Positions 6,997 through 58,699 of a stretch of DNA of 64,000 bases are shown here, piece after piece (the stretch's first letter is position 1; every line of letters starts with the position of its first letter). Under the pieces are notes generated by a model. The model made no database searches and was not told the origin of the DNA. It saw nothing but the letters and a program-made list of their open reading frames with translations. Source of the stretch: a virus; IMG/VR virus record IMGVR_UViG_3300017963_000190, positions 186,001 through 250,000 of that record; one strand, given 5' to 3'. The position numbers were made by a program, and so were the translations under genes.

Positions 6997-7006
6997 TAAC
7001 ATTATC

Positions 7007-18296: not shown

Positions 18297-18298
18297 TC

Positions 18299-20521
18299 AT
18301 GCCCAAATATCTGTTCCATACGACCTCATTACCAGGGTTGCTCTCTATTATGGGCAGCCACTCTGTGCAATCAGAGGCGCCATTTGTATCTTTTTCTGAG
18401 ATACCTCATGTGGGCGACATCAGCCACAATGATGTCGTCATTGTCTTCAAGCACTCCAAACTAGCTCCGCAGCTCCTGCAGGTGGACTACACAGAAGACT
18501 GGTACAACAAGCATCCCGAACAGGCAGCCTACGTTGCTGGTGAGGGGTGGTTGGAGCAGTTCATCTATCCAGAAGAGTGCATCGACAAAGATGGGTTTGA
18601 GGACGAAGAGTGCATGGAGGAGGCGTACAAGGAGGGGGAGATTTCTTCCTTCCTATTTAAAAGCGATGAGCGTGAGTGGGTGTCTAAGGAAGAAGACCAT
18701 CCAGTAACCTTCGACCCAGAGGCGGTGGACCGGATCTTGGTGGTGGATGAACGTCAGGTGGACGCGGTGAAGGGCGCTCTGGAGGATGCCAACTTTGATC
18801 TTCCTGTGGATGTTCGGCAGGCGGGGGTACGCGTAGCATCGCCATCCCTTCCTTCTGGGGCAGGATTCCTCTTCACCGATGGTATTCGGATCCTACTCCT
18901 CAAACGCAGCATCGACAACGATGAAGCAGGCACGTGGGGTATTCCTGGCGGTGGTGTTTATAATGGCGAAACCCCACAGGATGGGGCCCTGCGTGAATGC
19001 ATGGAGGAGATTGGTTCCGTACCACCGCACAGGATTCTGGATTGGTTTGTCTTCCAGTGCGATGATCCGCACTTCGGTACCTTCGAGTACACCACTTTTC
19101 TTGCGCAGGTAGAGCCAGCTTTTGTGGAGGGGTTCCTACCTGTGCTGGATCATGAGAGCACAGGGTGGGGTTGGTACGATGAAGAGGGGGTCAAAGCGCT
19201 CACTCTGCACCCCGGCCTTGACACGTTATTTGAGCACACCACCCCATTTTTCCAGCATATTGACAACCGCACCGCGCAGACAGAAGAAGAGCTGCAGAAG
19301 CTGCCCATCGACGTGCTGGACCGCATGGCTTTTGGGGTAGTGGAGGGCGTCCAAGAACTTCCTGTAGGCGATATCAAGATCAAGTACGCTGACGACTACA
19401 ACAACGCTGTGGCAGAGATTGAAGAGGGCTTGTGGGAAGGGAACGAGTCAGCGCTGGAGGAGCCGGTAGAGGTTTCTTTGGAGCGGGGCATCTATTGGCT
19501 GGAAGACGGTCACCATCGCTATGTAATGGCTAGAGGGTTGGGACGCGATACCATTTTGGCTGATCTGTCCATCAAGGACAATCCCGTGAGAGCGCTCATG
19601 CGACGGAATGCTATCGAGGAATCTGTGCAGTTACCACGTACCATTCGTTACCAGGGAGCAACGTATCAGGCTGTCACCGCAGGCCTTAGCACCGTATTAT
19701 TGAACAGGGCTGTATCGGATGCTCAGAAGAAGCAGGAGCTGCGTCCGTACGTCGACCTGTTCATGAAGCAGTTAGGCCGAAAGGAATCCTACAAAAAGAA
19801 TGCGGATAAAATCCTGTCTGCAGTAGAGGCCCTTTTAATGGCACCCTTCGCTCCGGCTGCAGAGTCTTCGGTGCATAGCGTGAAGGAATCAGTCAAGGCT
19901 TATGATCATCTGCAAAACCAAGTGAATGCCCTAGAGGCGTCCATGGGGGACGATCCCCAAGAGGCGATCAGTAAGATACAGAAGCTATTCGACGACTTCT
20001 ACGCTGAGACGCTCCCCAAAGTCCCAGCTTGGCATAAGGCATTTGGCGAGACCGCCAAGGATTTACTTATCGAACCAGGACTGCTCCCAGCCTCCGCTCG
20101 GATGTTGTACTACCTGAAAAAGGCTTTAAAGGAAGCAGAGCGGCTCAAGCTCCTGAGTGATGAGGGAGAAGAGGTCGACAAAGATGAAGTCCGCGAAGCC
20201 TTGGATGAGATTCTGCGTGAGCCTGTTTGGGTGAAGGAAAAGCAGAAAGAAGAAGCTCGGCGTAAAAAAGAGCAAGCTCCAGCGAAAGTGCAGCAGGAGC
20301 TGGAGGGGTTGTTCCCAACAAAGGAGAAGGGAAAAGAGGCCCCGGTACCGCTAACGAAGCGGAAAGAGGAAGCACCCGTCCCGCTTGTTCGCCGTAAGAA
20401 AACTCCTCCTGAGCCAGTTCCTGCTAAACAGGAGCGCGTGCCCGAACCACAACCGGTAGCAGAGGGTGGTGGTTTCCTTAAGCTCGACCCAGCAATTGTT
20501 AGGAGGCTGGTTAATGTCTAG
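18299..20521 (+). CDS. ADP-ribosyltransferase-like / Nudix / ParB-like fusion with IR-G-Y module
   Basis: 740 residues. Residues 3-55 (YLFHTTSLPGLLSIMGS... VSFSEIPHV) resemble the start of ART/DarT-type folds (Y-H-x-T, L-x-x-I, then S-x-x-P). Residues 185-320 form a Nudix hydrolase with a perfect box: G218-x5-E224-x7-R232-E-x-x-E-E-x-G239. Residues 340-430 hold a ParB/Srx-like DGHHRY (403-408). The IR-G-Y module PRTIRYQGATY (446-456) then precedes a helical, Lys/Glu/Pro-rich C-terminus. Nudix enzymes often split ADP-ribose or NAD derivatives, so an NAD/ADP-ribose effector is plausible. The ART assignment is the least certain part. Confidence 0.72.
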   Translation: MPKYLFHTTSLPGLLSIMGSHSVQSEAPFVSFSEIPHVGDISHNDVVIVFKHSKLAPQLLQVDYTEDWYNKHPEQAAYVAGEGWLEQFIYPEECIDKDGFEDEECMEEAYKEGEISSFLFKSDEREWVSKEEDHPVTFDPEAVDRILVVDERQVDAVKGALEDANFDLPVDVRQAGVRVASPSLPSGAGFLFTDGIRILLLKRSIDNDEAGTWGIPGGGVYNGETPQDGALRECMEEIGSVPPHRILDWFVFQCDDPHFGTFEYTTFLAQVEPAFVEGFLPVLDHESTGWGWYDEEGVKALTLHPGLDTLFEHTTPFFQHIDNRTAQTEEELQKLPIDVLDRMAFGVVEGVQELPVGDIKIKYADDYNNAVAEIEEGLWEGNESALEEPVEVSLERGIYWLEDGHHRYVMARGLGRDTILADLSIKDNPVRALMRRNAIEESVQLPRTIRYQGATYQAVTAGLSTVLLNRAVSDAQKKQELRPYVDLFMKQLGRKESYKKNADKILSAVEALLMAPFAPAAESSVHSVKESVKAYDHLQNQVNALEASMGDDPQEAISKIQKLFDDFYAETLPKVPAWHKAFGETAKDLLIEPGLLPASARMLYYLKKALKEAERLKLLSDEGEEVDKDEVREALDEILREPVWVKEKQKEEARRKKEQAPAKVQQELEGLFPTKEKGKEAPVPLTKRKEEAPVPLVRRKKTPPEPVPAKQERVPEPQPVAEGGGFLKLDPAIVRRLVNV

Positions 20522-46132: not shown

Positions 46133-46707
46133 CTGTTTGGTTCACGAGCGATTGGCACCTCTTCCACGATAATATCCTGAAGCTTGTCCCACGTCCGTTC
46201 AAGAACGTGCAGCAGATGCATAGTGTCATCTTGGCGAACTACCGGTCGTGTGTGCGCGAGGGCGATGTGGTGCATTTTCTTGGGGACCTGACTCTGCGCG
46301 GCCCCTCTGGCATCGAGGCAGTTCGCAGGCTCGTGGGGGGTTTACCTGGCACCAAGCATTTCGTCCTGGGTAATCACGATCGCTTAAAAGTGCAGAGCCT
46401 TTTGAAAATGGGCTTTGCCAGCGTGCACTCCTCATTGGTGTTACGCCATGGATCGTGTCAATATTTACACGTGCACGATCCGGATGAGGATCTGAACACA
46501 GGTTGGTCGTACGCACCGCGTATCATCTGTGGGCATGTACACGAGAAATGGAGGTACCGTGCTGAGCCTCGACCAGCAGTGAACGTAGGTGTGGACGCCT
46601 GGGGCTTTCAGCCAGTGCGCAGGCATACCGTGATGACTCTATTCGACAACCCACCTGACAGCTTTCGCAGGATGCTTGTGGGCAACGCAGCTGACTTTGC
46701 GGCGTGA
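46129..46707 (+). CDS. Calcineurin-like metallophosphoesterase
   Basis: 192 residues. SDWHLFHDN (7-15), FLGDLTL (about 51), LGNHDR (about 80-85), HVHDPDE and CGHVHE (about 134) cover all metal ligands. Cytoplasmic, unlike the second phosphoesterase at 60636. Substrate unknown (nucleotides or RNA ends are common). Confidence 0.88.
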   Translation: MTVWFTSDWHLFHDNILKLVPRPFKNVQQMHSVILANYRSCVREGDVVHFLGDLTLRGPSGIEAVRRLVGGLPGTKHFVLGNHDRLKVQSLLKMGFASVHSSLVLRHGSCQYLHVHDPDEDLNTGWSYAPRIICGHVHEKWRYRAEPRPAVNVGVDAWGFQPVRRHTVMTLFDNPPDSFRRMLVGNAADFAA

Positions 46708-46711
46708 TCTC

Positions 46712-47179
46712 ATGACCGACGATTGGAAAGAAAGGGCAGCTTCTATTTTGCTTCCTGGAGAAGTGATCCAGGAGCCTGAGAAGCCTAAACCAAAGAAAAT
46801 CAAGCGTAGTAAGAAGAAGCAAAGTTCTAAGCGGGTGCCTACAAAGGGTGTTTTTTCTTACGAGTATAATGAGAGCGATGATGGTCTTCTTATTAAGGGC
46901 CTTCAGCGAGCGCTAGACGTACCAGCGGATGGTATAATCGGGCCTCGTACACTAACTGCCTGGAAGAATGCCTATGATGCAGATGGCGTTTTTATGGTGA
47001 AGAACAACACAAATGCCGCAGTTATTTTGCCTGGCGTAGAGATTACGTTGGATCCTTTTGAGGAACGTATAATTGTAGTACCCAGTTCTGTGTGGCAGAA
47101 CGATAATTTACTTGCAATGGTACGGAGAGCTTACATCAGCATTGCTCCAGTTCCTGTACCAGAAAAATGGTGGCTATAG
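46712..47179 (+). CDS. Peptidoglycan-binding-like protein
   Basis: 155 residues from ATG 46712. A Lys-rich N-terminal third, then LLIKGLQRALDVPADGIIGP, RTLTAW: a PG_binding_1 repeat (LQ..L....DG..GP.T..A). No lytic domain is visible. Its end overlaps tRNA-His. Confidence 0.65.
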   Translation: MTDDWKERAASILLPGEVIQEPEKPKPKKIKRSKKKQSSKRVPTKGVFSYEYNESDDGLLIKGLQRALDVPADGIIGPRTLTAWKNAYDADGVFMVKNNTNAAVILPGVEITLDPFEERIIVVPSSVWQNDNLLAMVRRAYISIAPVPVPEKWWL

Positions 47180-47241
47180 CTCAGTTGGTTAGAGCGCTGG
47201 TTTGTGGCATCAGAGGTCATTAAAACTCTTGACGGCCACCC
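47169..47241 (+). tRNA. tRNA-His(GTG), copy 1, defective T-arm
   Basis: 73 nt; acceptor GGTGGCT/GGCCACC, anticodon stem CTGGT/ATCAG, loop TTGTGGC. T-arm is abnormal: GTCA/TGAC with a 10-base loop lacking the TTC motif. Confidence 0.65.
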
Positions 47242-47932
47242 TTATTATGGTACCATTGGTGTAGCGGTCTGCACGCTAGATTGTGGTCCTAGAAGCATCA
47301 GTTCGACTCTGATATGGTACCTTTACCTGCCTTCAAAGAAAAACATCCCACGCGTTTGTGAGTTTTGTGGATCGGATTTTTTGGCGCGAATAACGGAAAT
47401 TCGTCGAGGTAAAGCTCGTTTTTGTAGCCGATCTTGTGCGGCACGAAGCAAGCCACCTGTTTTGGCAGGAGCCACTGGTCCGGCAAACCCAAATTGGCGG
47501 GGTGGTGTAATATGCTCCAGTGCTGGGTACCACTATGTTCGTATGCATGAGCACCCACGGGCCACCAATAATGGCTATGTAAAGCGGGCTGACTTGGTCA
47601 TGGAAGAGGTTTTAGGGAGGGAGCTTCTTCCAGATGAAATTGTGCATCATAAAAATGAAGACAAAGGCGACGATTCGCCAGAAAATCTGGAGGTAATAAC
47701 TTACTCCGCGCATTCTTCCCTGCACGGGAAAGCCCGTGGTAAAAAACCTGTTGAGCAAAAATCAGATCACCCAACTAATCGCCGTTATGAATGGCCTGCG
47801 GATGAGATACTTTTGCAATGGCGACGTAACGCGTCTTTACGTGAAATAGCGGCGGAGATGGGATGTAGCCATAAGAGTGTAGATAGACGCATAAAGAAAA
47901 TACAAAAACGGGGCAAAAGGCAGCTTTGGTAG
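47204..47932 (+). CDS. HNH homing endonuclease at tRNA-His
   Basis: Up to 242 residues. Frame opens at GTG 47204, which is the His anticodon itself, and runs through tRNA-His copy 2; the true start may be a later non-ATG codon near 47330. Core: CEFCGSDF...CSRSC finger, NPNWRGG, HEHPRATNNGYV, LVMEEVLGR and VHHKNEDKGDDSPENLEV, the HNH block of I-HmuI-like enzymes, with a C-terminal HTH (LREIAAEMGCSHKSVDRRI). Confidence 0.8.
   Translation: MASEVIKTLDGHPYYGTIGVAVCTLDCGPRSISSTLIWYLYLPSKKNIPRVCEFCGSDFLARITEIRRGKARFCSRSCAARSKPPVLAGATGPANPNWRGGVICSSAGYHYVRMHEHPRATNNGYVKRADLVMEEVLGRELLPDEIVHHKNEDKGDDSPENLEVITYSAHSSLHGKARGKKPVEQKSDHPTNRRYEWPADEILLQWRRNASLREIAAEMGCSHKSVDRRIKKIQKRGKRQLW
47249..47322 (+). 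tRNA. tRNA-His(GTG), copy 2
   Basis: 74 nt; acceptor GGTACCA/TGGTACC, loop TTGTGGT, good T-arm; A-C mismatch at stem top. Lies 7 bases after copy 1. Confidence 0.82.
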
Positions 47933-47953
47933 CTAATCCGACTAGCCACCCTA

Positions 47954-47966
47954 CCTTGTAAAATAT
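47954..47966 (+). promoter_or_regulatory. CCTTGTAAAATAT promoter-like element
   Basis: 15 bases before the ATG at 47980, with GAAGAGG between. Confidence 0.5.
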
Positions 47967-47979
47967 TGAAGAGGAATTA

Positions 47980-48363
47980 ATGATGGAGAAACATATCCTG
48001 CGAAAATTTAAGCTCGATGCTAAGACGGCGGCGCACACTCCCGATGCGCGTGTGGGGGAATGGGTAGTGTGCATCCCAGACGAAGACTGGATATGCCCTG
48101 GGTGCGGTTGCGGTAATGAGGGCGGTGATGGTTTGTATTCTGATGACGATAGGGAATCCGTCGGGGATATTGATAGTCTCATCTTCTACTACGATGAGCT
48201 TTTACTGTGTAGTAAGTGTGAGTGGGAAGGTGCCGCTGGAACTTTGTACAACTTAGCAATGAAAGCCAAGGACATGGTTCAGTGCCCGTGCTGCAAAGGT
48301 GATGGAAGTGTGCGCAGTAAAAAAGCAGCAGAGTACAAGAAGCTAAAGAAGAGGAAGTCATGA
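47980..48363 (+). CDS. Zinc-rich hypothetical protein
   Basis: 127 residues. CPGCGCG, CSKC and CPCC give three metal pairs; the last with GDGS resembles a DnaJ-type zinc knuckle. ATGA overlap with the next gene. Confidence 0.72.
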   Translation: MMEKHILRKFKLDAKTAAHTPDARVGEWVVCIPDEDWICPGCGCGNEGGDGLYSDDDRESVGDIDSLIFYYDELLLCSKCEWEGAAGTLYNLAMKAKDMVQCPCCKGDGSVRSKKAAEYKKLKKRKS

Positions 48364-48866
48364 GCAACGATGGAGACTTCGAGGGGAGGATCGTTCCTTT
48401 CCAAGCTTTGATGAAGGGGCGTGGTCCTGATACCGTTGTCCGTTTTCTCACCAAGGAGCTCTACACAGAAATCCAGTGCAGGGTGATGGAAGACAAGTAC
48501 TGGCGTCAGGTGGAGCATGCTAGGGAAAAAGGCCACCAGCCTAGTCAGTTGCTGATACAGAAACTAGAAGCCCTCAACCGCTGCGAGACGCTGGACGAGT
48601 TTGCCTACTGGCTTCAGGACCAAAGCGGCCGGGCGATGCTGGTGTGCAACGCGTGTGGGAGGGTGGATGTGGAGGAGGTGCTGGAGATCAAAGAAAACGG
48701 AGAGCGCCGCCGCCTTTGTACATCCTGCTGCCACAGCCTGGGGCTCCTGGAGATCTACTCTGGGGCAAAGGCTTTGATGCCAGTTGATCGCGTGGTTCGA
48801 CAAAAGGACCCCAATATCATCGATGTTGAAGCAACGGTTATTGATGTTGAGGTAGACGAGGACTAG
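48360..48866 (+). CDS. Zinc-finger hypothetical protein
   Basis: 168 residues. Helical N-terminus, then CNACG...CTSCC finger and an acidic tail (IDVEATVIDVEVDED). Confidence 0.74.
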   Translation: MSNDGDFEGRIVPFQALMKGRGPDTVVRFLTKELYTEIQCRVMEDKYWRQVEHAREKGHQPSQLLIQKLEALNRCETLDEFAYWLQDQSGRAMLVCNACGRVDVEEVLEIKENGERRRLCTSCCHSLGLLEIYSGAKALMPVDRVVRQKDPNIIDVEATVIDVEVDED

Positions 48867-48867
48867 T

Positions 48868-49227
48868 ATGCCTGAAGCTAAGAAAGAGGTCATCTGGGTT
48901 ATGTGTCCCAGCTGTGGGGCAGTTGCATTATCTGACGATGGGCATATCCCAAACAACTGGCCAGCGCCGGAAATAGAATATACTTCCACAGGTAGGTTTA
49001 GGCGATTATTACGCAAGGGGCGTTATATTGCCGAGCAGCATTTCATGGCGTGTAATATCTGCATGGAGTTCGTTTGCCCCACATGCTTAACCGATCATGA
49101 AGGCAATCTGATGGAATGGTGCATTGCCTGCGAGACAAAAGAAAAAGGGTTGCGTGTAGACCACCCGGATCCACGGTTGCGCATCGACGCCGTTTCTTTG
49201 ACCCTTTTACGGGAGAAGTATAAATGA
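48868..49227 (+). CDS. Zinc-finger hypothetical protein
   Basis: 119 residues: CPSCG, CNIC, CPTC and CIAC, four CxxC pairs as in double ribbons. Forms a set with its two neighbours. Confidence 0.74.
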   Translation: MPEAKKEVIWVMCPSCGAVALSDDGHIPNNWPAPEIEYTSTGRFRRLLRKGRYIAEQHFMACNICMEFVCPTCLTDHEGNLMEWCIACETKEKGLRVDHPDPRLRIDAVSLTLLREKYK

Positions 49228-49403
49228 TGACAGCTGAAGAATTCGCAGCCTTATATATTCTTACGGTTGCTTCAAGCCTGCAGAAATATACCCAGCAGAC
49301 TACTCCTGGCATGAAAGCGCAAAGTGTGGAGGAGACGTTCGACCGCATGCGCATAGAGGGCTACGTGGTTGTGCGCCAGGAAGACGCTGGTTCTCCCTGC
49401 TGA
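49224..49403 (+). CDS. 59-aa hypothetical protein
   Basis: ATGATG start overlapping the upstream stop. Helical; no motif. Confidence 0.6.
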   Translation: MMTAEEFAALYILTVASSLQKYTQQTTPGMKAQSVEETFDRMRIEGYVVVRQEDAGSPC

Positions 49404-49406
49404 GGG

Positions 49407-49544
49407 ATGCGTGCCTGTGCTCATACGGTTATTGAGAAAGAGTTGGGATTGCCGCCACCGGATGAGGTGTACCCACTAAAAGATATGGACCTCTCTGGCG
49501 TGTGGGAGCGTGTGCGCAAGCGAATAGCAGACGGCACCATCTAG
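49407..49544 (+). CDS. 45-aa hypothetical protein
   Basis: Starts 3 bases after the previous stop (TGAGGGATG). Helical, charged. Not recognised. Confidence 0.5.
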   Translation: MRACAHTVIEKELGLPPPDEVYPLKDMDLSGVWERVRKRIADGTI

Positions 49545-49546
49545 AC

Positions 49547-49574
49547 TTGACAACGACACCAATCTGGCTATAGT
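49547..49574 (+). promoter_or_regulatory. Sigma70-type promoter
   Basis: TTGACA, 16 bp, TATAGT; upstream of tRNA-Lys, with a CCCAGAA/TTCTGGG hairpin in the leader. Confidence 0.75.
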
Positions 49575-49641
49575 ACCATTGTTATGTTGATGAACTTCCA
49601 CAGAGTGCGCTTGAAACCCATGGCCCAGAACTCAATTTTCT

Positions 49642-49713
49642 GGGTCGGTGGTGTAAAGGTTGCACAACGGACTTTTAATCCGTCCGGAGCAGGTTCGATT
49701 CCTGTCCGGCCCA
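49642..49713 (+). tRNA. tRNA-Lys(TTT)
   Basis: 72 nt; stem ACGGA/TCCGT, loop CTTTTAA. Confidence 0.93.
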
Positions 49714-49729
49714 TTTCTTGAGGTGACGT

Positions 49730-50341
49730 TTGTCCTCATTCAAGCCACACGATCTTGAACGTACGCCACTCAAGGTGAGCAGTCAAGGGTTCGTGTTGGC
49801 TGAATGCCCCAAGCACCCGTATGCGTGGAAGCGAGATGGTTGCGTGCATTTTCACCGGTTGGTGATGGAGAACCATCTTGGACGGTACCTTCGCGAAGAT
49901 GAGTTCGTATTCCACAAAGACGAGGACAGAAAAAATAACGATATAGAGAATCTGAGAATCGTTATCCGGTCTCCGGCAACACGGGTGTACAAACCAAGGA
50001 GCGCACCACCGAAGAGGATTTGTGGTGTGTGCAAGGAGGGGTTTCGTCCGGAGTGGCTGGAGTGCAAAGCGAACTACAGCGATTCTAAGTACTGCTCGGA
50101 TTTTTGCCGAGCAGAAGCCAAAAGGAGCGCTAAGAAAAAGGCGCACGCGGTAGGAAGGGACTTCAAGAAAATCGAACCACCCAGTCGCGAAGAGCTGGCG
50201 GCTTTGATTTGGGAGTATCCATCAACCAAGCTTGCTGAAAAGTTTGGTGTGTCCGACCGCACCGTCGGCAACTGGTGCAAGAGGTATGGGATAGATAAAC
50301 CACCACGAGGATACTGGGCCTCGATAAGGTCTAGGCAGTGA
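49730..50341 (+). CDS. HNH homing endonuclease between tRNA-Lys and tRNA-Trp
   Basis: 203 residues from TTG 49730 (GAGGTG upstream). VHFHRLVMENHLGRYL and FHKDEDRKNNDIENLRIV form the HNH block, but the usual VHH reads VFH. A CGVCKEG...CSDFC finger and a C-terminal HTH (STKLAEKFGVSDRTVGNWCK) follow. It ends 9 bases before an abnormal tRNA-Trp. Confidence 0.8.
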   Translation: MSSFKPHDLERTPLKVSSQGFVLAECPKHPYAWKRDGCVHFHRLVMENHLGRYLREDEFVFHKDEDRKNNDIENLRIVIRSPATRVYKPRSAPPKRICGVCKEGFRPEWLECKANYSDSKYCSDFCRAEAKRSAKKKAHAVGRDFKKIEPPSREELAALIWEYPSTKLAEKFGVSDRTVGNWCKRYGIDKPPRGYWASIRSRQ

Positions 50342-50350
50342 AAATTATCT

Positions 50351-50417
50351 GGGTCGCGATCTGGGATCAGAGAGGGCTCCAACCCCTCCCAGCCGGGTTC
50401 AATTCCTGGGCGACCTG
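50351..50417 (+). tRNA. tRNA-Trp(CCA) with shrunken D-arm
   Basis: 67 nt; acceptor GGGTCGC/GCGACCT, stem GAGGG/CCCTC, loop CTCCAAC, good T-arm. Only about 14 bases between acceptor and anticodon arm (GATC-TGG-GATC), and no U8. Confidence 0.7.
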
Positions 50418-50694
50418 TCTCGGTGCTTAAGGTAAACGCGTGACCTATCTATCGCAGCGGGCGCCAAAGCTGCTGTAGGAGCATCGTGAAATCGGTCCTT
50501 CGATAAGGGGAAAGAAGGATCGAGGGTGTGGGATACCGAGTCGGTGGGCCCCCTCGGTTAGTATCTGTTGCCGCTCTTGTGTGGCAGGTACTAGCCCATT
50601 GCAGCCGTTGGTACCCTGAAGATGGGCTACAGGGTCCGGTCCACTGCCCCGAGTATCTAAAACGATGCGTGGAGCCCTCTCCCACACCCACCTT
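50418..50694 (+). ncRNA. Large structured RNA between tRNA-Trp and tRNA-Val
   Basis: No ORF. GGGTGTGGGA (50524) pairs with TCCCACACCC (50680), 10 bp, closing a domain that holds GATAC-CGAG/CTCGG-GTATC, TGCC/GGCA, GGTACT/AGTATC (50587 with 50652) and a pseudoknot: TAGCCCAT/ATGGGCTA (50592, 50622) with loop ACCCTG to CAGGGT (50613, 50630). Upstream stems GCAGC/GCTGC and TCCTTC/GAAGGA. Not a class I recognise. Confidence 0.6.
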
Positions 50695-50768
50695 GGGCGA
50701 TTAGCTCAGCCTGGAAGAGCGCTGTCTTGACTCGGCAGATGTCACAGGTTCAAGTCCTGTATCGCCCA
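50695..50768 (+). tRNA. tRNA-Val(GAC)
   Basis: 74 nt; stem CTGTC/GGCAG, loop TTGACTC. Confidence 0.93.
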
Positions 50769-50945
50769 GAGGGGCTAAGAGCCCCTACTCAGGACCTGGT
50801 CCAGTCTGAGGCTACCCAGGTGCCAGTGAGCCACGAGGCGGGTGCGCTGCGAGCTCGTGGATGACGCCTGGGATGTTGCAAGCGCACAGGCCGGTGCTCC
50901 GGTTGTCCGCCCGATATTTCTGGAGCACTCGACCACGGACCATTA
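50769..50945 (+). ncRNA. Second structured RNA with pseudoknot, between tRNA-Val and tRNA-Ile
   Basis: Hairpin GGGGCT-AAG-AGCCCC first. Then CCCAGGTG/CGCCTGGG (50815, 50865) encloses CCACGAG/CTCGTGG (50831, 50854), whose loop GTGCGCT (50842) pairs with AGCGCAC (50881) outside: a 7-bp pseudoknot. GTGCTCC/GGAGCAC (50894, 50922) closes the 3' part. Confidence 0.58.
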
Positions 50946-51018
50946 GGGCTTGTAGCTTAGTGGCTAAAGCGCACGCCTGATAAGCGTGAGATCGACGGTT
51001 CGAGTCCGTCCAGGCCCA
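50946..51018 (+). tRNA. tRNA-Ile(GAT)
   Basis: 73 nt; stem CACGC/GCGTG, loop CTGATAA. Confidence 0.94.
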
Positions 51019-51024
51019 CTTTGC

Positions 51025-51099
51025 GCGCCCGTAGCTCAGTTGGATCAGAGCATCGGTCTACGGAACCGAGGGCCGCAGGTTCGAGTCCTGCCGGGCGTA
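51025..51099 (+). tRNA. tRNA-Arg(ACG)
   Basis: 75 nt; stem TCGGT/ACCGA, loop CTACGGA. A34 would need conversion to inosine by host TadA. Confidence 0.93.
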
Positions 51100-51114
51100 A
51101 AAGGAGGCTTACCA

Positions 51115-51279
51115 ATGGCCGATGAAGATCCGTATGAGGATACCCTTCCAGAAGTCAAGGACATGACAACGTTGGGGTTGCTTGACGAGCTCGCCACGTT
51201 CTATCCTGGGCTGGAAGATCAAGAAGCCTTTATTGAGCTCACACGCCGCATCAAATCCTCAGGGGCTGCCAATGCGTAA
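51115..51279 (+). CDS. 54-aa acidic hypothetical protein
   Basis: ATG 51115, AGGAGG upstream. Acidic start then a helix. Overlaps the next gene by 8 bases. Confidence 0.62.
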   Translation: MADEDPYEDTLPEVKDMTTLGLLDELATFYPGLEDQEAFIELTRRIKSSGAANA

Positions 51280-51508
51280 ACTATTACGACGTCTTTGGTG
51301 CCGCCTCCGCTTCCACGATCTGCAAATCGTTAAACACATTCACGGGGACATCAAGCACGGTACCCGTCTGCTGAAGTGCCGGAGGTGCGAGCGCCGCTTT
51401 GTGATGTCCGATCCCCACCGAGCCTTTTTCTGCTACTCCGACAATCCCATGTTCGCGCGAGACCTCATGAAGTTGTATGGGCTGCCAGCGGATGACTTGT
51501 ATGGATAA
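51272..51508 (+). CDS. Small basic protein with CxxC
   Basis: 78 residues. CRRC pair, Arg/His-rich N-terminus; possibly nucleic-acid binding. Confidence 0.66.
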   Translation: MRKLLRRLWCRLRFHDLQIVKHIHGDIKHGTRLLKCRRCERRFVMSDPHRAFFCYSDNPMFARDLMKLYGLPADDLYG

Positions 51509-51549
51509 TGCGGACCCGTTTCCACCTATCACTTTTCCTAAGTGTATTC

Positions 51550-51578
51550 TTGACACCAAGCCCCTCACTGGTTATATA
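51550..51578 (+). promoter_or_regulatory. Sigma70-type promoter
   Basis: TTGACA, 17 bp, TATATA; followed by AAAGGAGG and the radical-SAM gene. Confidence 0.75.
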
Positions 51579-51597
51579 CTAGTAAAGGAGGTGCAGC

Positions 51598-52404
51598 ATG
51601 CCCTTCCAACCCTTCCTGATTAGCAAACAGAAACAGTTCACCAACGGGATCGTCTATGGCCTACGCACCGCGGATGGCTACCCTATCGAGGTCACCGATA
51701 CCTTCCTCCCCTGCTACACCAAAGATGCTGTTGGGCGCCGGCAGAACAAGCTGACGGGGGTTGGCGTAGGAGATCGTTACGAGCGTTGGATGGTAGGCGT
51801 ATCTGTGATGAGTGGCTGCCCCGTACGCTGCAAATTCTGCGCAACAGGTCAGCTTAAGAAGTGGCGTTCTCTCACCGCGCAGGAGATAGCTGCCCAGGTC
51901 CAGTTCATCCTGGAGCGCAACTTGCGCTACGATCCTGCTAAATCTTACGAGTTCAAAGTGAACTACACCCGTATGGGGGAGCCATTTCTCAACATTGAGG
52001 AAGTGATTCAAGCCATCCATTTGATCGACGAGCTTCTGCCAAACGTTGACGTACACCACTACATCTCCACTATTGGAATCGTCGGCTCAGACTTCGACTG
52101 GATCGCAGACAACGTCACTCTGCAACTCTCCCTTCACTCTCTCGACCCTGAACGCCGCAATTGGTTGATCCCCTACAAGAAGAAGCTCACCATCCCAGAG
52201 CTCGGCGACGTCAGAACGTACAGCGATCTGAAAACTACCCTCAACCTCACTCTGGTGGAAGAAGCCGACTTCGACATCGTGCGGCTGCAGAAATTCTTCC
52301 CTCCAGAGCACTTCTTCGTCAAGCTCAGTCCCATCAATCCAAACGAAACCTCAGAGAGACACGGCTTAGGTACCGGTGTTATCGACGAGGTTAATTTGCA
52401 TTAG
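51598..52404 (+). CDS. Radical-SAM RlmN-like methyltransferase core, lacking the C-terminal Cys motif
   Basis: 268 residues; ATG 51598. [4Fe-4S] motif C74-x3-C78-x2-C81 in GCPVRCKFCATGQLKKW, LTAQEIAAQV, then MGEPFLN (about 126-132) and LQLSLHS, all in RlmN order (CxxxCxFCATG, LTaxEI, MGMGEPLxN). RlmN methylates A2503 of 23S rRNA and A37 of some tRNAs through a methylated Cys in a C-terminal AACGQL segment. This chain stops about 100 residues short of that; the segment is on the next gene. It may modify phage or host tRNA, or protect ribosomes. Confidence 0.82.
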   Translation: MPFQPFLISKQKQFTNGIVYGLRTADGYPIEVTDTFLPCYTKDAVGRRQNKLTGVGVGDRYERWMVGVSVMSGCPVRCKFCATGQLKKWRSLTAQEIAAQVQFILERNLRYDPAKSYEFKVNYTRMGEPFLNIEEVIQAIHLIDELLPNVDVHHYISTIGIVGSDFDWIADNVTLQLSLHSLDPERRNWLIPYKKKLTIPELGDVRTYSDLKTTLNLTLVEEADFDIVRLQKFFPPEHFFVKLSPINPNETSERHGLGTGVIDEVNLH

Positions 52405-52418
52405 CGAGGAGGCACGCT

Positions 52419-52562
52419 ATGGATACCGACAAGATCAAAGAAGAACTGGAAGCTGCTGGGTATGACCACGCAGTAGCGATTGCGACCCAAGCTGAGGTGG
52501 AAGCGGGCGCTGCCTGTGGGCAGCTCAGCGTCATCACAGAGAGTGAGGAAGACCAGCAATAA
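52419..52562 (+). CDS. 47-aa protein carrying the RlmN catalytic tail (AACGQL)
   Basis: Strong GAGGAGG before ATG 52419, in a different frame from the upstream gene. Sequence ELEAAGYDHAVAIATQ, AEVEAGAACGQLS matches the end of RlmN (G-x-x-x-x-V-R-x-x-x-G-x-D-I-x-A-A-C-G-Q-L), with the methyl-carrying Cys at residue 33. Two-gene layout implies a split enzyme. Confidence 0.72.
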   Translation: MDTDKIKEELEAAGYDHAVAIATQAEVEAGAACGQLSVITESEEDQQ

Positions 52563-52566
52563 GTGC

Positions 52567-52595
52567 TTGACAACGTCAAAGGGGCGTGCTTAACT
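52567..52595 (+). promoter_or_regulatory. Sigma70-type promoter
   Basis: TTGACA, 17 bp, TTAACT; its start point would fall at or next to the ATG at 52603, giving a leaderless message. Confidence 0.7.
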
Positions 52596-52602
52596 TGCTG
52601 GC

Positions 52603-52827
52603 ATGCCAACCTACCTCATTGACGATCAAGCTGCCTTTGATGCTGCTCTCGCTCGTCTTAGAAAAGAGCGTGACGCAGAAGAGCGCTCTTTTTTCTCTTC
52701 AGACCCTCCTCCTGTTCACGTTATTTCTACACAGACGTTTGAGCGCCAATATCAGGAGACGAACGAGCGCTGCAGGCAAGAACTATTCAGTGTATTCAAG
52801 ATCCCAAAGGGTCTGATGGAGAAATAA
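52603..52827 (+). CDS. Small hypothetical protein
   Basis: 74 residues; helical, charged. No RBS; probably leaderless from the promoter 7 bases upstream. Confidence 0.65.
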   Translation: MPTYLIDDQAAFDAALARLRKERDAEERSFFSSDPPPVHVISTQTFERQYQETNERCRQELFSVFKIPKGLMEK

Positions 52828-52829
52828 GG

Positions 52830-53048
52830 ATGTCTGATGAGATTCAATACTTGACCATCGAATGCCCCCTATGTGGAGGCAAGTCCGCTATCCCTCATGC
52901 TTCCGAGCTCAGTGACATCGTCCACTGTGTTGTGGGTTGCCCAGGTTGTGGGAAGCATCTTCTGTGTTTGCCTCCTGGAAAGCTTGTCAAGTTTGACGAC
53001 CAGGGAGAACACCGGGATTATCCTGTGCACGAGCTGCCAAAAGGGTAG
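52830..53048 (+). CDS. Zinc-ribbon microprotein
   Basis: 72 residues; CPLCGG and CPGCGK pairs about 26 residues apart, AAGG upstream. Confidence 0.72.
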   Translation: MSDEIQYLTIECPLCGGKSAIPHASELSDIVHCVVGCPGCGKHLLCLPPGKLVKFDDQGEHRDYPVHELPKG

Positions 53049-53052
53049 CCCG

Positions 53053-53065
53053 TCTTGTAAAATAC
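53053..53065 (+). promoter_or_regulatory. TCTTGTAAAATAC promoter-like element
   Basis: Exact copy; TAAAAT ends 9 bases before ATG 53073. Confidence 0.62.
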
Positions 53066-53072
53066 AATTAAG

Positions 53073-53453
53073 ATGAGCGACTTTTTGATTTGCCGCAAGT
53101 GCGGCAGCCTCAAGCGGGCGCATACCCATATTGTCTTTCACGACTTTGGCTTCCAGCTAGGGGAGCCTGGCGTTCATTATTGCCCCACCTGCGATCCTGA
53201 GCCGGCGCCCCCGCAAGTGCATCCTATTACCGATCCCGAGGAAGTGTTTGGGAGCAATATCGCCGGAATGATTTTTGCCTCCCTGAAAGAAAAAGAAGCC
53301 AGGATTAAAGCGCTCGAAGACGCTGTGCGGGAGATGCTCAAGTATGAATGCCCGCGCTGCGATCTGGACGTGCAGGCAGCAGTAGACGTTTACGGCGTGC
53401 AGTTGACCATCACCGGAGTGTTCGATGACAACGAAGAAAAAGAGCCGCGTTGA
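53073..53453 (+). CDS. Zinc-ribbon plus coiled-coil protein
   Basis: 126 residues: CRKCG...CPTC ribbon, a helix (EKEARIKALEDAVREML) and CPRC. Overlaps the next gene by 29 bases. Confidence 0.74.
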   Translation: MSDFLICRKCGSLKRAHTHIVFHDFGFQLGEPGVHYCPTCDPEPAPPQVHPITDPEEVFGSNIAGMIFASLKEKEARIKALEDAVREMLKYECPRCDLDVQAAVDVYGVQLTITGVFDDNEEKEPR

Positions 53454-56217
53454 CCTCCTGAAGGAGATGTTCAAGGAGTATGGGCTCGATACCGAGTTCT
53501 TTTCGCAGTATGCCACGTACGTTGGGACGCAGCTAGATGAGGTGGATCGGGATCTATGGCAAATATGCCAAAGCTACAGCTTGGATGTAGAATCGGATTT
53601 TGAGCGCGCGAAGTCCGATCCAAAAATCCAGGCCTTGGGGGCTGCCATGGCTGCCACCACAAAAGAGTTCCTGGGAATAGGAGCTCCACGCAGCCCAGAA
53701 GAAGCATTTGCGGCTCGTAATGTAGGGGTGCCCAATACTACACTCCGTCAAGCAGAAACCGCAGTCATACTAGGTGCAACAGAGGTTACTCCGATGAGCG
53801 CAACAAAGTCCACAAAGAAACCGCAGGGTGCGGGAAGCAACCAAGAGGAAGTAATCGATCCGGCAAGGGAGCGGGCTATCACTTTATCCAATTGCTTGGA
53901 ATTTCTGCAGTCAGGTGCAGCAGAGGACTTGCTTGTAGACGCGCGCATTCGCGTTTCGGAGCATCGACATGCCCAATCCAAGTACCGGCACGATCTGAGT
54001 GTGAACAATACTGTCCTGATGCCAGTTGCTATCTTGCGGTTGCTTGCGCACTTTGACAGGTCCTCTGAAGGCTGGGCGCAACTGTGGCCTGCGTTGAAGA
54101 GGTGGCGCGTAGCTACCATTTTCCGAGATGCGCATCGAAAGGATCTACCAGAAAATATTCGTGTACCGGCGCAGCTGGCTGTCGATGTGTTAACGGTTAT
54201 CTGCCCGCTTGCAAACGAGCGCAAGATCTCCGACCAGCTGATAAAAGAGAAGAAGAGCACCGCTTATCATACGTCTGCGATAGATCCTTCACAACGCTCC
54301 AACATGCTGGACACGGAGCCGCTATTCGTTCAGTACGGAGAATTCCCTCAGGTGTTCATGCAGAAGGGCGGTACCGTTACTTGTGACGTGTCCAAGCCAA
54401 ACATTATAGTTGACGTGCGGGCAGAAACCACCTCCCTTGTTGGGCATCTTCTGCCGTCAGAAGGATTCACTGCGCCGTCCGACGCGACGATGACCGTAGT
54501 AAACTTTCCGTATGAAAACACGGACAAGCTGGTTTGTGTACTTACTCATGGGGATCTGTACCTGGTTAAGCGAAAGTATATTCCAGAGAGCAAGTATTTA
54601 GATGTTGGGCCGCTCTTTAAAGACTGGGGAAACCTGTGCATGGCTTTTGCGCTCCCAGATGGTACGGTCACCTGTGATTTCGACAAGGGCGGGAAGGCCC
54701 TGGGGCGCGTGTGGTCGCCGAACATGTCTGTTCCTGCAGGGGAGCAGGTAGTCGAGGTTCAGTATGAAGACACCGGGAAGCTGATACGAATTTGCATGCG
54801 TGGCATGGCAATGGCACTAAAGATGCCGGAGAAACCACAATACATCAGGCCAGGCGTGTACAGTGCTTCTGTTGTCGATGGCAAGTATCCTTTGCTTAAT
54901 TCAGAGACGGGCCGTTTTTCGTCTGAGAAGACTAATGAAGCCAACAAGCCAAGAGGCGCAGGAGACTACAAGCTCACCACGAACCGGTATGTGCGTCCTC
55001 AGCTTAATACTAATAAGAGGTACGTAGCGTCCAAGGCATCCAAACCCCATTCGTCTGAGACTGGCCGGGTAGCGTCGGATAAGCCTAATATGAAAGAGGT
55101 TGGCAGTAAGAATGGCTACCACCGCAAAACGATATCCGCAAACTACAAAGACACAGAGCTCCGTGTGATTCTGCCATTCCTCTTCACTACGGAATTCGAG
55201 CGGATGGCAGAGGATAGTCTCTATGGGTCTGCAGAGGCTAGGTGGCTCACAGAGGACCTCGGTATTCCCTACACCAAGCTTAATAATTGCGTGGACGCTT
55301 CGCAGGTACGCGAGCTTGTTTGTGAGAGACTGAGGCGCCTACCATGTACGCACACGCTGTTTCAAATTCCAGGATATCTACGACCAATTTTGCACCTGCT
55401 TCATGCAGGGGGCGCCACGTTCGAGAAGGACGCGCACTGGACGCATGTCCATCAACGAGAAGAATTTTCTCTTACTATCAACGATGCCCCTTTGGAATTC
55501 CATCGGATTGGGTTCTGTCGAGATGGTCGTACTCTACGCCTGCAGATTCCTCGGCATACCAATTCGGTAGACTTTAGACCAGATCAAAACGTCCAGGACC
55601 TGAAGCGGTTCACGCTACGGTTACGCTGCCTTTCTGCATGGCATGAGATTATTTTTGCCGACTGCTTCGTTAAGCAATACGAAGAGGCCGGAGAGATCAT
55701 TCATATTTGGTATACAGGTGGACGAAGGAGCTACGGTTGCCTGCCCAACCCGCATGGGGAGACGATGGATATGTTGGGCATCTCAGGTCCGTACCCACCT
55801 CTAATCGACAACACAAAGCTTCTTGCCCCAGTTGAGGACTACCTTATTTCATGGACCAAGGGAAAGCGGCGCCGCCAGGTAGCGGTGACTTGCATGGATC
55901 AGCTCACGGTCGAAGTGAACGGCGTGCCGATACAACCAGACTGCATCGAGTTTGAGGCATTCCCAGAAACAACTCCGCATCCGCGCGTCCATTTATTGAT
56001 GAGCGGGAAGGATTGGGATGCGCATAAGGATTCGTACATCCCCTCGTTCATCAATGAGGAATTTCCAATCAAGATCACCCTTAAGGATAAGGGGGTGGTG
56101 CTCAGGTCGGATAGGTGCGTTGGCAAAATGAAAAACGCGAGCCAGGATAAGAAGTTCCGGCTTCGCGTGACGATGCTTAATTTGGAGGCGGTTGGCCGTG
56201 AGCCAAAAGAAGATTAA
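53425..56217 (+). CDS. Large hypothetical protein with internal repeats
   Basis: 930 residues, not recognised. Three parts: helical N-terminus (1-300), a middle of beta repeats in which V-x-C-D-x-x-K-x-x-x-V and KLV-C/R-I-C-x-x-G-x recur (about 325-480), and a C-terminal beta/alpha part. SETGRFSSEKTNE and SSETGRVASDKPN form a second short repeat (about 492 and 545). Heads a five-gene overlapping operon. Could be a structural, adhesin-like or regulatory protein. Confidence 0.78.
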   Translation: MTTKKKSRVDLLKEMFKEYGLDTEFFSQYATYVGTQLDEVDRDLWQICQSYSLDVESDFERAKSDPKIQALGAAMAATTKEFLGIGAPRSPEEAFAARNVGVPNTTLRQAETAVILGATEVTPMSATKSTKKPQGAGSNQEEVIDPARERAITLSNCLEFLQSGAAEDLLVDARIRVSEHRHAQSKYRHDLSVNNTVLMPVAILRLLAHFDRSSEGWAQLWPALKRWRVATIFRDAHRKDLPENIRVPAQLAVDVLTVICPLANERKISDQLIKEKKSTAYHTSAIDPSQRSNMLDTEPLFVQYGEFPQVFMQKGGTVTCDVSKPNIIVDVRAETTSLVGHLLPSEGFTAPSDATMTVVNFPYENTDKLVCVLTHGDLYLVKRKYIPESKYLDVGPLFKDWGNLCMAFALPDGTVTCDFDKGGKALGRVWSPNMSVPAGEQVVEVQYEDTGKLIRICMRGMAMALKMPEKPQYIRPGVYSASVVDGKYPLLNSETGRFSSEKTNEANKPRGAGDYKLTTNRYVRPQLNTNKRYVASKASKPHSSETGRVASDKPNMKEVGSKNGYHRKTISANYKDTELRVILPFLFTTEFERMAEDSLYGSAEARWLTEDLGIPYTKLNNCVDASQVRELVCERLRRLPCTHTLFQIPGYLRPILHLLHAGGATFEKDAHWTHVHQREEFSLTINDAPLEFHRIGFCRDGRTLRLQIPRHTNSVDFRPDQNVQDLKRFTLRLRCLSAWHEIIFADCFVKQYEEAGEIIHIWYTGGRRSYGCLPNPHGETMDMLGISGPYPPLIDNTKLLAPVEDYLISWTKGKRRRQVAVTCMDQLTVEVNGVPIQPDCIEFEAFPETTPHPRVHLLMSGKDWDAHKDSYIPSFINEEFPIKITLKDKGVVLRSDRCVGKMKNASQDKKFRLRVTMLNLEAVGREPKED

Positions 56218-56569
56218 GCGTAAGCAGCCGCGCATCAAATTCACTCCACACATCGAGAAGCGTGTAGAGGTGCCGCGGCCAGCGCACAGCGGAGTTGTCT
56301 GGGTTGACGAGGTCGAGTATGGGATCACTGTGCGCGACGGCGGTGTTGTGCTGACAGCCAGACCAAATAATGGAGCTAGCAGCAATAATGATGAGAGCGG
56401 CACCGCGCACAACACTCCTTTGGAGGAGACTTCTAGCACGTCCAATCAGGTAACCCGTCCTGCGCCAATAGCTATAGTGATGGACACCGCTGAAGCGAAA
56501 GCGGTCGGCCGCTATCTATTGGAAGCCTCGAAGCTTGCCAGCCGCATGAGGGGGACACGAAATGGCTAG
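56192..56569 (+). CDS. Hypothetical protein
   Basis: 125 residues from TTG 56192 (or GTG 56198). Basic start, disordered Ser/Thr/Asn middle, helical end. Confidence 0.68.
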   Translation: MAVSQKKIKRKQPRIKFTPHIEKRVEVPRPAHSGVVWVDEVEYGITVRDGGVVLTARPNNGASSNNDESGTAHNTPLEETSSTSNQVTRPAPIAIVMDTAEAKAVGRYLLEASKLASRMRGTRNG

Positions 56570-57188
56570 CTATGCAGCTACTGTGCATGAAAACCTTTTG
56601 TGTGCACCGACGGTTTACGGGTTTGATGGTTTGGAAGAGCTGCGCGTGGCGGATCATCTTTTCCTGACCTCCGGTAACGGATACAAGTGGGAGGCTGGGG
56701 AGCTCGTTGACAAATTCCCAGAGGAGTCCCCTCGTCCTTACTGGGGTACGTACATTAGGGATGTTCTCTATTTGTACTATGCGTACCAGGGGGTCCTTGT
56801 CGGGGAACCTAAGATGACCGACTCACTGCAAACTTTAATCTGCGTTGGGGAGCTTAAACAGTTTTCAGAAGAAGCCGCATTGCAGCGCTTCTTAGAAGAG
56901 GAAAGGGAGAAGGGACTCTCTTTCGCTCAGGTCTCCCCACGTTACAGTAGAGCCTTTAACGTTCCAGACGATGTGAAACCAGATTGGCTAGACGCCATGA
57001 TAGGTTTCTTGGAGATAGTGGTAGAAGCCCGTGCGGACATATTTAGTGTGCAGATGGAAAGTGCTGCTCAGCAGCAGGAGACTTGTAGGGAGCAGCTACA
57101 GAAGCTCAAGGGATTTCGTAAAGAGCGGAGTGAGTCAACTGTACGTGGGGCTGTTTGGCACCACAACCTTCGTTGCGGGAATTTGTAG
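56562..57188 (+). CDS. Hypothetical protein
   Basis: 208 residues; mixed alpha/beta, C-terminal coiled coil. Not recognised. Its stop shares one base with the next GTG. Confidence 0.75.
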   Translation: MASYAATVHENLLCAPTVYGFDGLEELRVADHLFLTSGNGYKWEAGELVDKFPEESPRPYWGTYIRDVLYLYYAYQGVLVGEPKMTDSLQTLICVGELKQFSEEAALQRFLEEEREKGLSFAQVSPRYSRAFNVPDDVKPDWLDAMIGFLEIVVEARADIFSVQMESAAQQQETCREQLQKLKGFRKERSESTVRGAVWHHNLRCGNL

Positions 57189-57541
57189 TGGCCACTGATT
57201 TAGACAGGCTGCATGAGGTAGCCAAGTGGGATCGCGTTCCAGGGGTCAGACCGTTTGTTCCACGTGGGGGCGGGGTAACCTATTATGACTGCCACTTGGT
57301 AGCAGGGGTAGTAAGCTTGGGCGAGGAAGCTGTCGCTTGTGTGGTGCCTGAGTATCGGTGGTTAGCTCATGTTTTACCGATGATGCGCGAAGTTTTTCAG
57401 GAAGCCGGCTTACCTTTTAAACGGACCTCACAATTAAGATTTGAATCCGGAGAAACGCTCATTCGCTTTGCAATATGCGCAAACCCTGATTTTGCTTTGC
57501 GCTTCTGCGGGTACACAGAAGCTATGGTATATTTCCGATGA
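57188..57541 (+). CDS. Hypothetical protein
   Basis: 117 residues from GTG 57188. Beta-rich; no motif known. Confidence 0.7.
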   Translation: MATDLDRLHEVAKWDRVPGVRPFVPRGGGVTYYDCHLVAGVVSLGEEAVACVVPEYRWLAHVLPMMREVFQEAGLPFKRTSQLRFESGETLIRFAICANPDFALRFCGYTEAMVYFR

Positions 57542-57906
57542 GCCGCAAGATGCAGACACCAATCCCTATCGAATCTTATGCGCGTGAGGGGCGTAAACTA
57601 CTAGCGCAGCCAGGAGGAGCTCGTCTGGCCTTGGAGTTCCTGCTTGATTGTCTGGAGCGCCACAAGGATGAGCTGCGAGAACTGAGAACCGCACCTGCTC
57701 CGAAGACGCCAGCCTTGGCTGATTTGGGCCTTAGATTCGGTCAGATGAAAGAGGTGGTGGGAGAGCAGGTGGCAATTATGGAGCGGGCTCTAATTGTGGA
57801 GGCTCTTTATCGTACCGATGGGAATGCGACTAAGGCAGCAGAGCTTCTTGGGATAAGTCGTAAGGGTATCCAGCTGAAGATGCAGTCTTTGGGGATCAAG
57901 CGGTAG
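57538..57906 (+). CDS. Fis/NtrC-type HTH regulator
   Basis: 122 residues. C-terminal ALIVEALYRTDGNATKAAEL, LGISRKGIQLKMQSLGI is a Fis-family HTH as at the end of NtrC regulators. The N-terminal part is helical and may dimerise. Last gene of the 53425 operon. Confidence 0.82.
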   Translation: MSRKMQTPIPIESYAREGRKLLAQPGGARLALEFLLDCLERHKDELRELRTAPAPKTPALADLGLRFGQMKEVVGEQVAIMERALIVEALYRTDGNATKAAELLGISRKGIQLKMQSLGIKR

Positions 57907-57908
57907 AA

Positions 57909-57977
57909 AGGGCACGACGGGATTTGAACCCGCGTTGTCGGGGGCCTTAATCCTCGACAACCATCCAAAGCGCGCCC
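57909..57977 (-). tRNA. tRNA-like sequence with aberrant D and anticodon arms
   Basis: 69 nt. Perfect T-arm and acceptor 3' CGTGCCC; a matching 5' GGGCGCG lies 69 bases away, but the D-arm is cut short and the anticodon stem is about 9 bp (TTGTCGAGG/CCCCCGACAA with a mismatch). Probably a decayed or odd tRNA. Confidence 0.4.
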
Positions 57978-58096
57978 AAGCGGCCCGAGTGGTTGTACCC
58001 TCACACCCGGACCTAGTATTGCCAGTATATTCGAATCACCGATGGCATTTAAGCTGCTGCGTAAGGCATTAAGTCTTGCGTGCTGTCTTTACACTA

Positions 58097-58140
58097 CAAA
58101 CCCATAAAGAGAGGGTTTGGCGGGAATCAAACCCGCACTT
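58097..58140 (-). tRNA. tRNA-like halves in permuted order, unit B
   Basis: Reading the minus strand: T-arm (GCGGG-TTTGATT-CCCGC) and CAAACCC come first, then 9 bases, then GGGTTTG and a D-arm-like TAGTGTAAAG. The acceptor strands pair across the short linker. Confidence 0.4.
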
Positions 58141-58234
58141 CAAGATAGTTTGTCGGCAGCGTTCGAGCCGGTGAAACTGGCGAATGCTTAGTTTTGGAGA
58201 ATAGCTTGACGTTCAGTTCGGGCATCTATAAAGC

Positions 58235-58393
58235 CTCGACAGCCGTCTGCATCAGACACGACGACCGCGTTTACCAGATTTCGCCACCCGTACGCAAAGT
58301 AATGGGGCTGGGAGGCGCATCGCGTCTCCACTGTTTAAGCGCATCGCGTCTAAACGCCCCGATTGTACGGGGAAGGGTTCGAACCTCCAAGTC
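58235..58393 (-). tRNA. tRNA-Leu-like halves in permuted order, unit A
   Basis: Minus strand order: T-arm (GGAGG-TTCGAAC-CCTTC), CCCGTAC-A, a 70-base linker folding as GGGGC/GCCCC around two hairpins with repeated GACGCGATGCGC, then GTACGGG and TGGCGAAATCTGGTAAACGCG, a typical Leu D-arm. The anticodon arm is irregular. Confidence 0.45.
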
Positions 58394-58465
58394 GAGTTTG
58401 GTGTGCTTCATAATCATCGCCCTTGAGATTCCTGCTTAAGTTAAGCTTGTCTCCATCCTAAGCCG

Positions 58466-58699
58466 TTATGTGTTTTTTACCACCTCTCTAGTCCAGCGAA
58501 GAGCTCCAAGCTCTAGTTGGTTTTCTGATTCCTTTACATCCGCTTGCTCCCCAGCAGCAATGCGCTGGGAATAGGACAGACCATCTTTGGCCATCTGCAG
58601 CTGGCTCTTCACTTCCACCTCCAGCTGCTTGATGCGCCGGTCGAGGAAAAAGAGAGCTCGCTCTTTGGACACTGTGGGATCGATGTTTTCTGCGGACAT
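58466..58699 (-). CDS. Hypothetical coiled-coil protein
   Basis: 77 residues; AGGAGA before ATG. Helical throughout. Confidence 0.7.
   Translation of the reverse strand: MSAENIDPTVSKERALFFLDRRIKQLEVEVKSQLQMAKDGLSYSQRIAAGEQADVKESENQLELGALRWTREVVKNT

Follow-up and report, generated by a model that had tools for sequence, protein, structure and literature searches.

We describe a pair of phage genes that almost certainly represents a genuine division of an RlmN-like protein, the larger gene encoding a radical-SAM protein of the RlmN/Cfr type (here CORE) and the smaller a peptide derived from the tail of such enzymes (here PEP). We propose that the two products probably constitute a two-part RlmN-type radical-SAM enzyme, in which Cys33 of PEP acts as methyl carrier in trans. 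To our knowledge, no RlmN/Cfr-type enzyme is known in which the methyl-carrier cysteine resides on a separate subunit, and a split enzyme of the RlmN type was not found described in the open-access full-text literature. Many phages carry the pair, often beside genes that rebuild NAD, which points to unstudied chemistry, maybe used during infection.

The two genes and their relation to RlmN and Cfr

The window, that is, the whole stretch of 64,000 nucleotides analysed here, spans positions 186001-250000 of a virus record 260,067 bases long. CORE and PEP lie in it on the same (plus) strand and in different frames, with 14 nt between the stop codon of CORE and PEP and a strong ribosome-binding site before each (Table 1). 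A first-pass annotation had described a 268-aa protein with CxxxCxxC, LTAQEI and MGEP and no C-terminal cysteine, followed by a separate 47-aa gene in another frame with its own GAGGAGG, and both genes were confirmed as described. LTAQEI occupies CORE residues 92-97, the protein terminates in VIDEVNLH without the tail cysteine, and the tail of PEP carries AACGQLS. The promoter-like site upstream of CORE was missing from the output of a stricter sigma-70 scan and is hence only suggestive. The surrounding 12,141 bases (46419-58559, approximately 12.1 kb) are 100% identical in IMG/VR contig 3300017971_000311 from another dataset, which makes a local sequencing error at CORE/PEP very unlikely; no phage relatives were found at the nucleotide level for window positions 40001-64000. 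The window also contains 33 tRNA genes (22821-63352), which between them serve nearly all amino acids and 30 of which form a one-strand run at 22.8-51.1 kb, and a 757-aa ORF (18248-20518) with a Nudix hydrolase-like segment within the longer protein.

Table 1. Positions of CORE, PEP and associated features in the window
Feature	Position	Strand	Basis or remark
Promoter-like TTGACA-N17-TATATA	51550..51578	+	Just 5' of CORE; single exact match in window
CORE ribosome-binding site AAAGGAGGT	51584..51592	+	Sequence
CORE, radical-SAM protein of RlmN/Cfr type, 268 aa, lacking both HhH domain and C-terminal cysteine tail	51598..52404	+	TIGR00048, PF04055, PDB RlmN matches, conserved family A1
Gly67 codon (site of resolving cysteine C118 of E. 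coli RlmN)	51796..51798	+	Alignment with fused RlmN proteins
C74xxxC78xxC81, putative [4Fe-4S] cluster ligands	51817..51840	+	Sequence; invariant in family A1
MGEP motif, residues 126-129	51973..51984	+	Sequence; common to RlmN
PEP ribosome-binding site GAGGAGG	52406..52412	+	6 nt 5' of ATG; sequence
PEP, 47 aa, homologous to the helix, strand and cysteine loop at the C-terminus of RlmN-like enzymes	52419..52562	+	Conservation, tail homology, purifying selection
AACGQL with Cys33 (52515-52517), counterpart of methyl-carrier C355 of E. coli RlmN	52509..52526	+	Cys conservation

Comparison with family models places CORE close to RlmN and Cfr, although only in part. PF04055 and PDB entries of RlmN match it, and the RlmN model TIGR00048 aligns to residues 62-210 only (model positions 103-253 of 355, E 2.2e-21) with 76.2 bits, below the curated cut-off of 290, so that membership of the full model is not met; the RlmN and Cfr models alike match in the cluster region only. 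Within that region C74, C78 and C81 are invariant and stand in the GC..CKFC context, and MGEPFLN and LTAQEI satisfy the MGEPxxN and LTAxEI motifs of RlmN/Cfr. No plasmid homologues were detected at 1e-15. With RlmN, the C2-methyltransferase of 23S rRNA A2503 and tRNA A37, the pair shares the barrel, CxxxCxxC, MGEP, LTAxEI, the homology of the AACGQL tail and the predicted fold; with Cfr, the C8-methyltransferase of 23S rRNA A2503, it shares the superfamily (E 4e-14) and a carrier cysteine that in Cfr sits in the C-terminal tail. It differs from both in having the tail cysteine on its own gene, in lacking the N-terminal HhH domain and in the loss of the resolving cysteine (C118 in RlmN; C105, its counterpart, in Cfr).

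As judged from these alignments, CORE/PEP is therefore not simply an RlmN cut in two. No counterpart of the first ~80 residues of RlmN, which form the helical RNA-binding (HhH) domain, was found in CORE by alignment, the match beginning only at the strand that precedes the cluster motif. The position of C118 is occupied by glycine in 71 of 72 aligned rows, by cysteine in the fused true RlmN rows and by threonine or isoleucine in fused sister proteins. The methyl-carrier cysteine is not on the CORE chain; in all split loci it is on a separate gene, and the homologous segment is in PEP. The initial designation of the pair as a split RlmN-like methyltransferase thus stands as far as the split is concerned, whereas a methyltransferase acting on rRNA or tRNA has not been demonstrated, given the glycine at C118, the absent RNA-binding domain and an NAD-rich neighbourhood, three features that the designation had overlooked.

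Conservation of the pair and origin of the peptide

CORE and PEP occur together far more often than chance would allow. Alignment scans of IMG/VR and GTDB contigs, from phages and metagenome-assembled genomes, yielded 94 distinct CORE proteins, and PEP was present in 91 of the 92 assessable loci (90/94 in the fetched flanks and one elsewhere in the record), the remaining two loci being truncated by contig ends; L080 is the sole assessable CORE without PEP. The reverse search, starting from PEP, recovered CORE within 6 kb in 75 of 80 loci, two of the other five lying at contig ends, and in three records (L220, L221 and L254, which may be fragments) PEP occurs with no CORE anywhere. Similarly, a tblastn search of annotated phages found CORE-like proteins in 35 records, and the eight best of these were exactly the eight in which PEP was found independently: Bacteroides crAss-like phage tikkala, Moorella phage MTATph1, four Pectobacterium phages, Yersinia phage P778 and Vibrio phage D479. 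The search for the same gene pair in other phages, suggested at the outset, was thereby answered.

The arrangement of the two genes is flexible. PEP directly adjoins CORE in 51 loci; in another 35 it follows CORE at a distance of at least 120 nt, and in four it precedes CORE. It is never on the opposite strand, and it is often more than 1 kb away, distances of 1-2.8 kb being found. The 51 adjacent genes use all three relative frames (8, 19 and 24). Programmed frameshifting is ruled out by the use of all three frames together with the distances of 1-2.8 kb, and a single split accident by the three frames.

PEP behaves as a protein-coding gene in its own right. It has its own start codons, with a ribosome-binding site in 50 of 83 cases, and is under purifying selection (median NG86 dN/dS 0.11 over 494 pairs), third codon positions holding 67% of the differences. 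Across 26 diverse peptides, residues A20, A22, T23, E26 and the AACGQ at 31-35 do not vary, and the cysteine is invariant in 53/53 peptides of alignment A3; the motif variants SACGQL and AACGML/MM exist. One natural PEP without cysteine was seen (L059 8132-8245), which lacks exactly CGQL (AGAASIITEE) in a locus whose CORE is of normal appearance.

Searches of family libraries with PEP returned no family, only a weak SoxAX-binding match (E 0.036) that we judged to be due to chance. In a search of the six-frame ORFs of all loci (29,130) with a PEP profile, true peptides scored at least 46 bits, and the matches ranking next, from 19 down to 7 bits, were with few exceptions the C-terminal tails of fused RlmN-like proteins; each such match is weak alone, and the evidence lies in their ranking. 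In support of this, hhalign related PEP to RlmN-like tails with E 6e-6 and a probability of 69%. Phylogenetic analysis of 94 proteins placed the split proteins together with two fused relatives that have the tail in frame, L117 and L118 (98/87), and then with a cellular fused family (99/93). As the split clade was monophyletic in just 68% of bootstrap trees, a single origin of the split is likely but not proven. These fused relatives without C118 (L117, L118, L119-L126, L128, L131, L147 and L158) are nearest in the tree and have tails homologous to PEP, from which they differ in that the tail (VACGQ, SNCGQ) is in frame.

Ten members of this sister group (L119, L120, L122-L126, L128, L131 and L147) belong to a cellular three-gene set in Bacteroidota, Thermoplasmata and others, consisting of an isochorismatase-like hydrolase, a thioredoxin-reductase-like flavoprotein and the fused C118-less RlmN-like protein with its SNCGQ tail. 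A reading of the isochorismatase-like neighbour as a nicotinamidase was unsupported, the matches being generic only. A further RlmN-like family (L127, L129, L130, L132, L133, L137 and L138) has an in-frame GGGCGQLW tail, keeps the C118 cysteine and stands apart from RlmN in the tree.

Predicted structure and proposed mechanism

Structures were predicted for natural loci in which CORE and PEP share a frame, with the one stop codon read as glycine; rows from annotated phage records were left out. AlphaFold2 returned confident models for two such chains of approximately 36% identity, L012 (pLDDT 89.5, pTM 0.89) and L087 (pLDDT 91.4, pTM 0.91), in both of which PEP supplies the barrel's final helix and strand, placed with fair to high confidence (ten-residue blocks mostly at 79-97). 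The cysteine loop was modelled with low confidence (pLDDT ~65 falling to 41 in L012, ~64 in L087). The best Foldseek matches were RlmN and Cfr (E 6e-14), including C118A RlmN-tRNA complexes, and the prediction, which is not an experiment, thus meets the expectation of an RlmN/Cfr fold with its C-terminal helix, strand and loop. It should be noted that single read-through chains favour docking and that binding between two chains is outside the scope of these models; a physical complex of CORE and PEP remains an inference. Nevertheless, the idea that the two polypeptides rebuild one active site gains support from the two-way co-occurrence, the tail homology, the predicted docking in two distant read-through pairs and the near-invariant AACG, and we hold with good confidence that Cys33 works in the active site of CORE.

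We propose the following sequence of events, for which neither chemical nor binding data exist. CORE would bind the [4Fe-4S] cluster and SAM, and PEP, by docking, would complete the barrel with its missing last helix and strand and so place Cys33 in the active site. The further steps are inferred by analogy with RlmN: a first SAM would methylate Cys33, and a second would give rise to a 5'-deoxyadenosyl radical that abstracts one hydrogen of the S-methyl group. This would leave an S-CH2 radical, which would add to the substrate at an electrophilic ring carbon. That Cys33 is a methyl carrier in this strict RlmN sense is an analogy that we favour with moderate confidence, and the radical addition is likewise inferred. 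In RlmN, C118 resolves the enzyme-RNA adduct, and the C118A variant traps the crosslink (PMC9692996). If CORE/PEP follows the same path, the mechanism of that report could not be completed without C118; by inference, with glycine at this position the product may be released by another route or the peptide may stay attached to it. The natural loss of C118 would test whether release always needs that cysteine, and a detachable carrier would allow chemists to study or alter the cysteine step with the cluster domain untouched. The related suggestion that PEP is a swappable methyl carrier stays open, as PEP is often found beside a second radical-SAM gene, is fused to one once, is duplicated once and lacks CORE in three records.

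The division of one radical-SAM reaction between two gene products recalls the split lipoyl synthase LipS1/LipS2, in which both components are reported to be protein enzymes annotated as biotin synthases (PMC9585515); CORE/PEP differs in that its second part is a peptide of 40-50 residues with only the cysteine element.

Neighbouring genes and alternative readings

The neighbourhood of CORE/PEP is enriched far above chance in NAD genes, MoaA-like radical-SAM proteins (rSAM2) and a methyltransferase. Recurrent neighbours comprise rSAM2a (25 loci), rSAM2b (17), NMNAT/Nudix (20), Nampt (15), NadE (6) and NAD kinase (4), and a class I methyltransferase occurs in 23 loci, every one also with rSAM2a. 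At least one partner gene was present in 52/94 loci, none being found in the flanks of 42/94, and an NAD gene near CORE in only 26/94; after clustering at 75% identity, partner genes accompany 30 and NAD genes 18 of 54 clusters. Nampt was found in 21 of 50 related records, and in 14 of these 21 it lies within 4 kb of CORE (2.5 expected; 0/10,000 random placements). Of the control genes, PhoH lies within this distance in 1/10 and ThyA, read from positions, in 0/8. We found no description of radical-SAM genes linked to phage Nampt in the open-access full-text literature. NAD and partner genes are absent from the window's own 260-kb record, which implies that CORE and PEP are the minimal set.

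With the RNA-binding domain lost, the probable substrate is a small nucleotide or some other nucleic acid; since Nampt, NMNAT, NadE and NAD kinase recur as neighbours, our best guess is an NAD-linked molecule, an inference whose chances we place somewhat short of even. If correct, phages may modify, and not only rebuild, the NAD pool attacked by bacterial defences.

It is also quite possible, if not our preference, that the NAD genes merely mark an anti-defence island and that the substrate of CORE/PEP has nothing to do with NAD. Phage NARP2, composed of Nampt and NMNAT, has been described as countering NAD depletion (PMC12028318), and the absence of any NAD gene from the window's record speaks for a substrate unrelated to NAD; that record does not meet the NARP2 criterion, even though NARP2 genes are frequent neighbours of CORE/PEP elsewhere. 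Against this, the recurrent neighbours also include NadE and NAD kinase, both ordinary biosynthetic genes, NAD genes adjoin CORE in four of the eight clusters formed at 60% identity, the controls ThyA and PhoH show no comparable proximity, and PEP is found between NMNAT and Nampt in L220. We know of no radical-SAM component in NARP2. The L220 segment (4958-8154) carries NMNAT, PEP, Nampt and, judged by eye, a macrodomain-like (ADP-ribose-binding) gene in a row, and its record has no CORE.

Alternatively, PEP might be a substrate or scaffold whose cysteine is modified by CORE, the MoaA-like radical-SAM protein and the class I methyltransferase, with the NAD enzymes supplying the attached group, as in a peptide-derived cofactor or RiPP. 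We regard this as unlikely, although several arrangements speak for it: PEP directly follows rSAM2b in nine loci and the methyltransferase in 12 (21 in total), forms an in-frame fusion with rSAM2b in L074, occurs in duplicate in Vibrio phage D479 and, in the CORE-less record L220, stands between NMNAT and Nampt. However, the homologous segment is part of the catalyst in fused enzymes, 42 of 94 loci have no partner gene in their flanks, and helix, strand and AACG are conserved throughout PEP, whereas a RiPP precursor would combine a conserved leader with a variable core, which was not seen. In phage D479 (L008 4785-5066) the PEP unit is doubled in one ORF, the copies differing at 20 of 96 bases, mostly synonymously.

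Of comparably low probability, in our estimate, is that PEP is a consumable covalent partner and that an S-CH2 adduct, as in RlmN C118A, is the natural end product, an idea that follows from the lack of a resolving cysteine. PEP would then serve as a cysteine cofactor that is encoded by a gene, made on the ribosome and consumed by a radical-SAM enzyme, and phages would make peptide-nucleotide, perhaps peptide-NAD, conjugates, unless the second radical-SAM protein, together with the methyltransferase, took over the adduct.

Returning to the two-part enzyme with a carrier in trans, its reaction could still be the ordinary one, namely m2A-type methylation of a phage or host tRNA or rRNA adenine by an enzyme in two pieces, the split being functionally meaningless. 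The closest families are indeed RlmN and Cfr, and CORE starts ~500 nt after a tRNA-Arg in a window with 33 tRNA genes. On the other hand, the N-terminal RNA-binding domain is absent, C118 is glycine throughout the clade, and tRNA genes occur in the flanks of only 9/60 CORE loci, so that tRNA adjacency is unsupported as a general feature; NAD and radical-SAM neighbours are commoner. An RNA substrate is not excluded, but appears doubtful to us, and methylation of C2 or C8 of an RNA adenine would be no more than an inference.

Finally, a sequencing or assembly frameshift that splits one ordinary gene, as a tail motif directly downstream in another frame might suggest and as the first-pass annotation had asked to be excluded, is already refuted, with next to no residual doubt, by the identical DNA in a separate contig, by some 90 independent loci that are split likewise, often with PEP more than 1 kb away, and by the separate start codons and, often, ribosome-binding sites of PEP.
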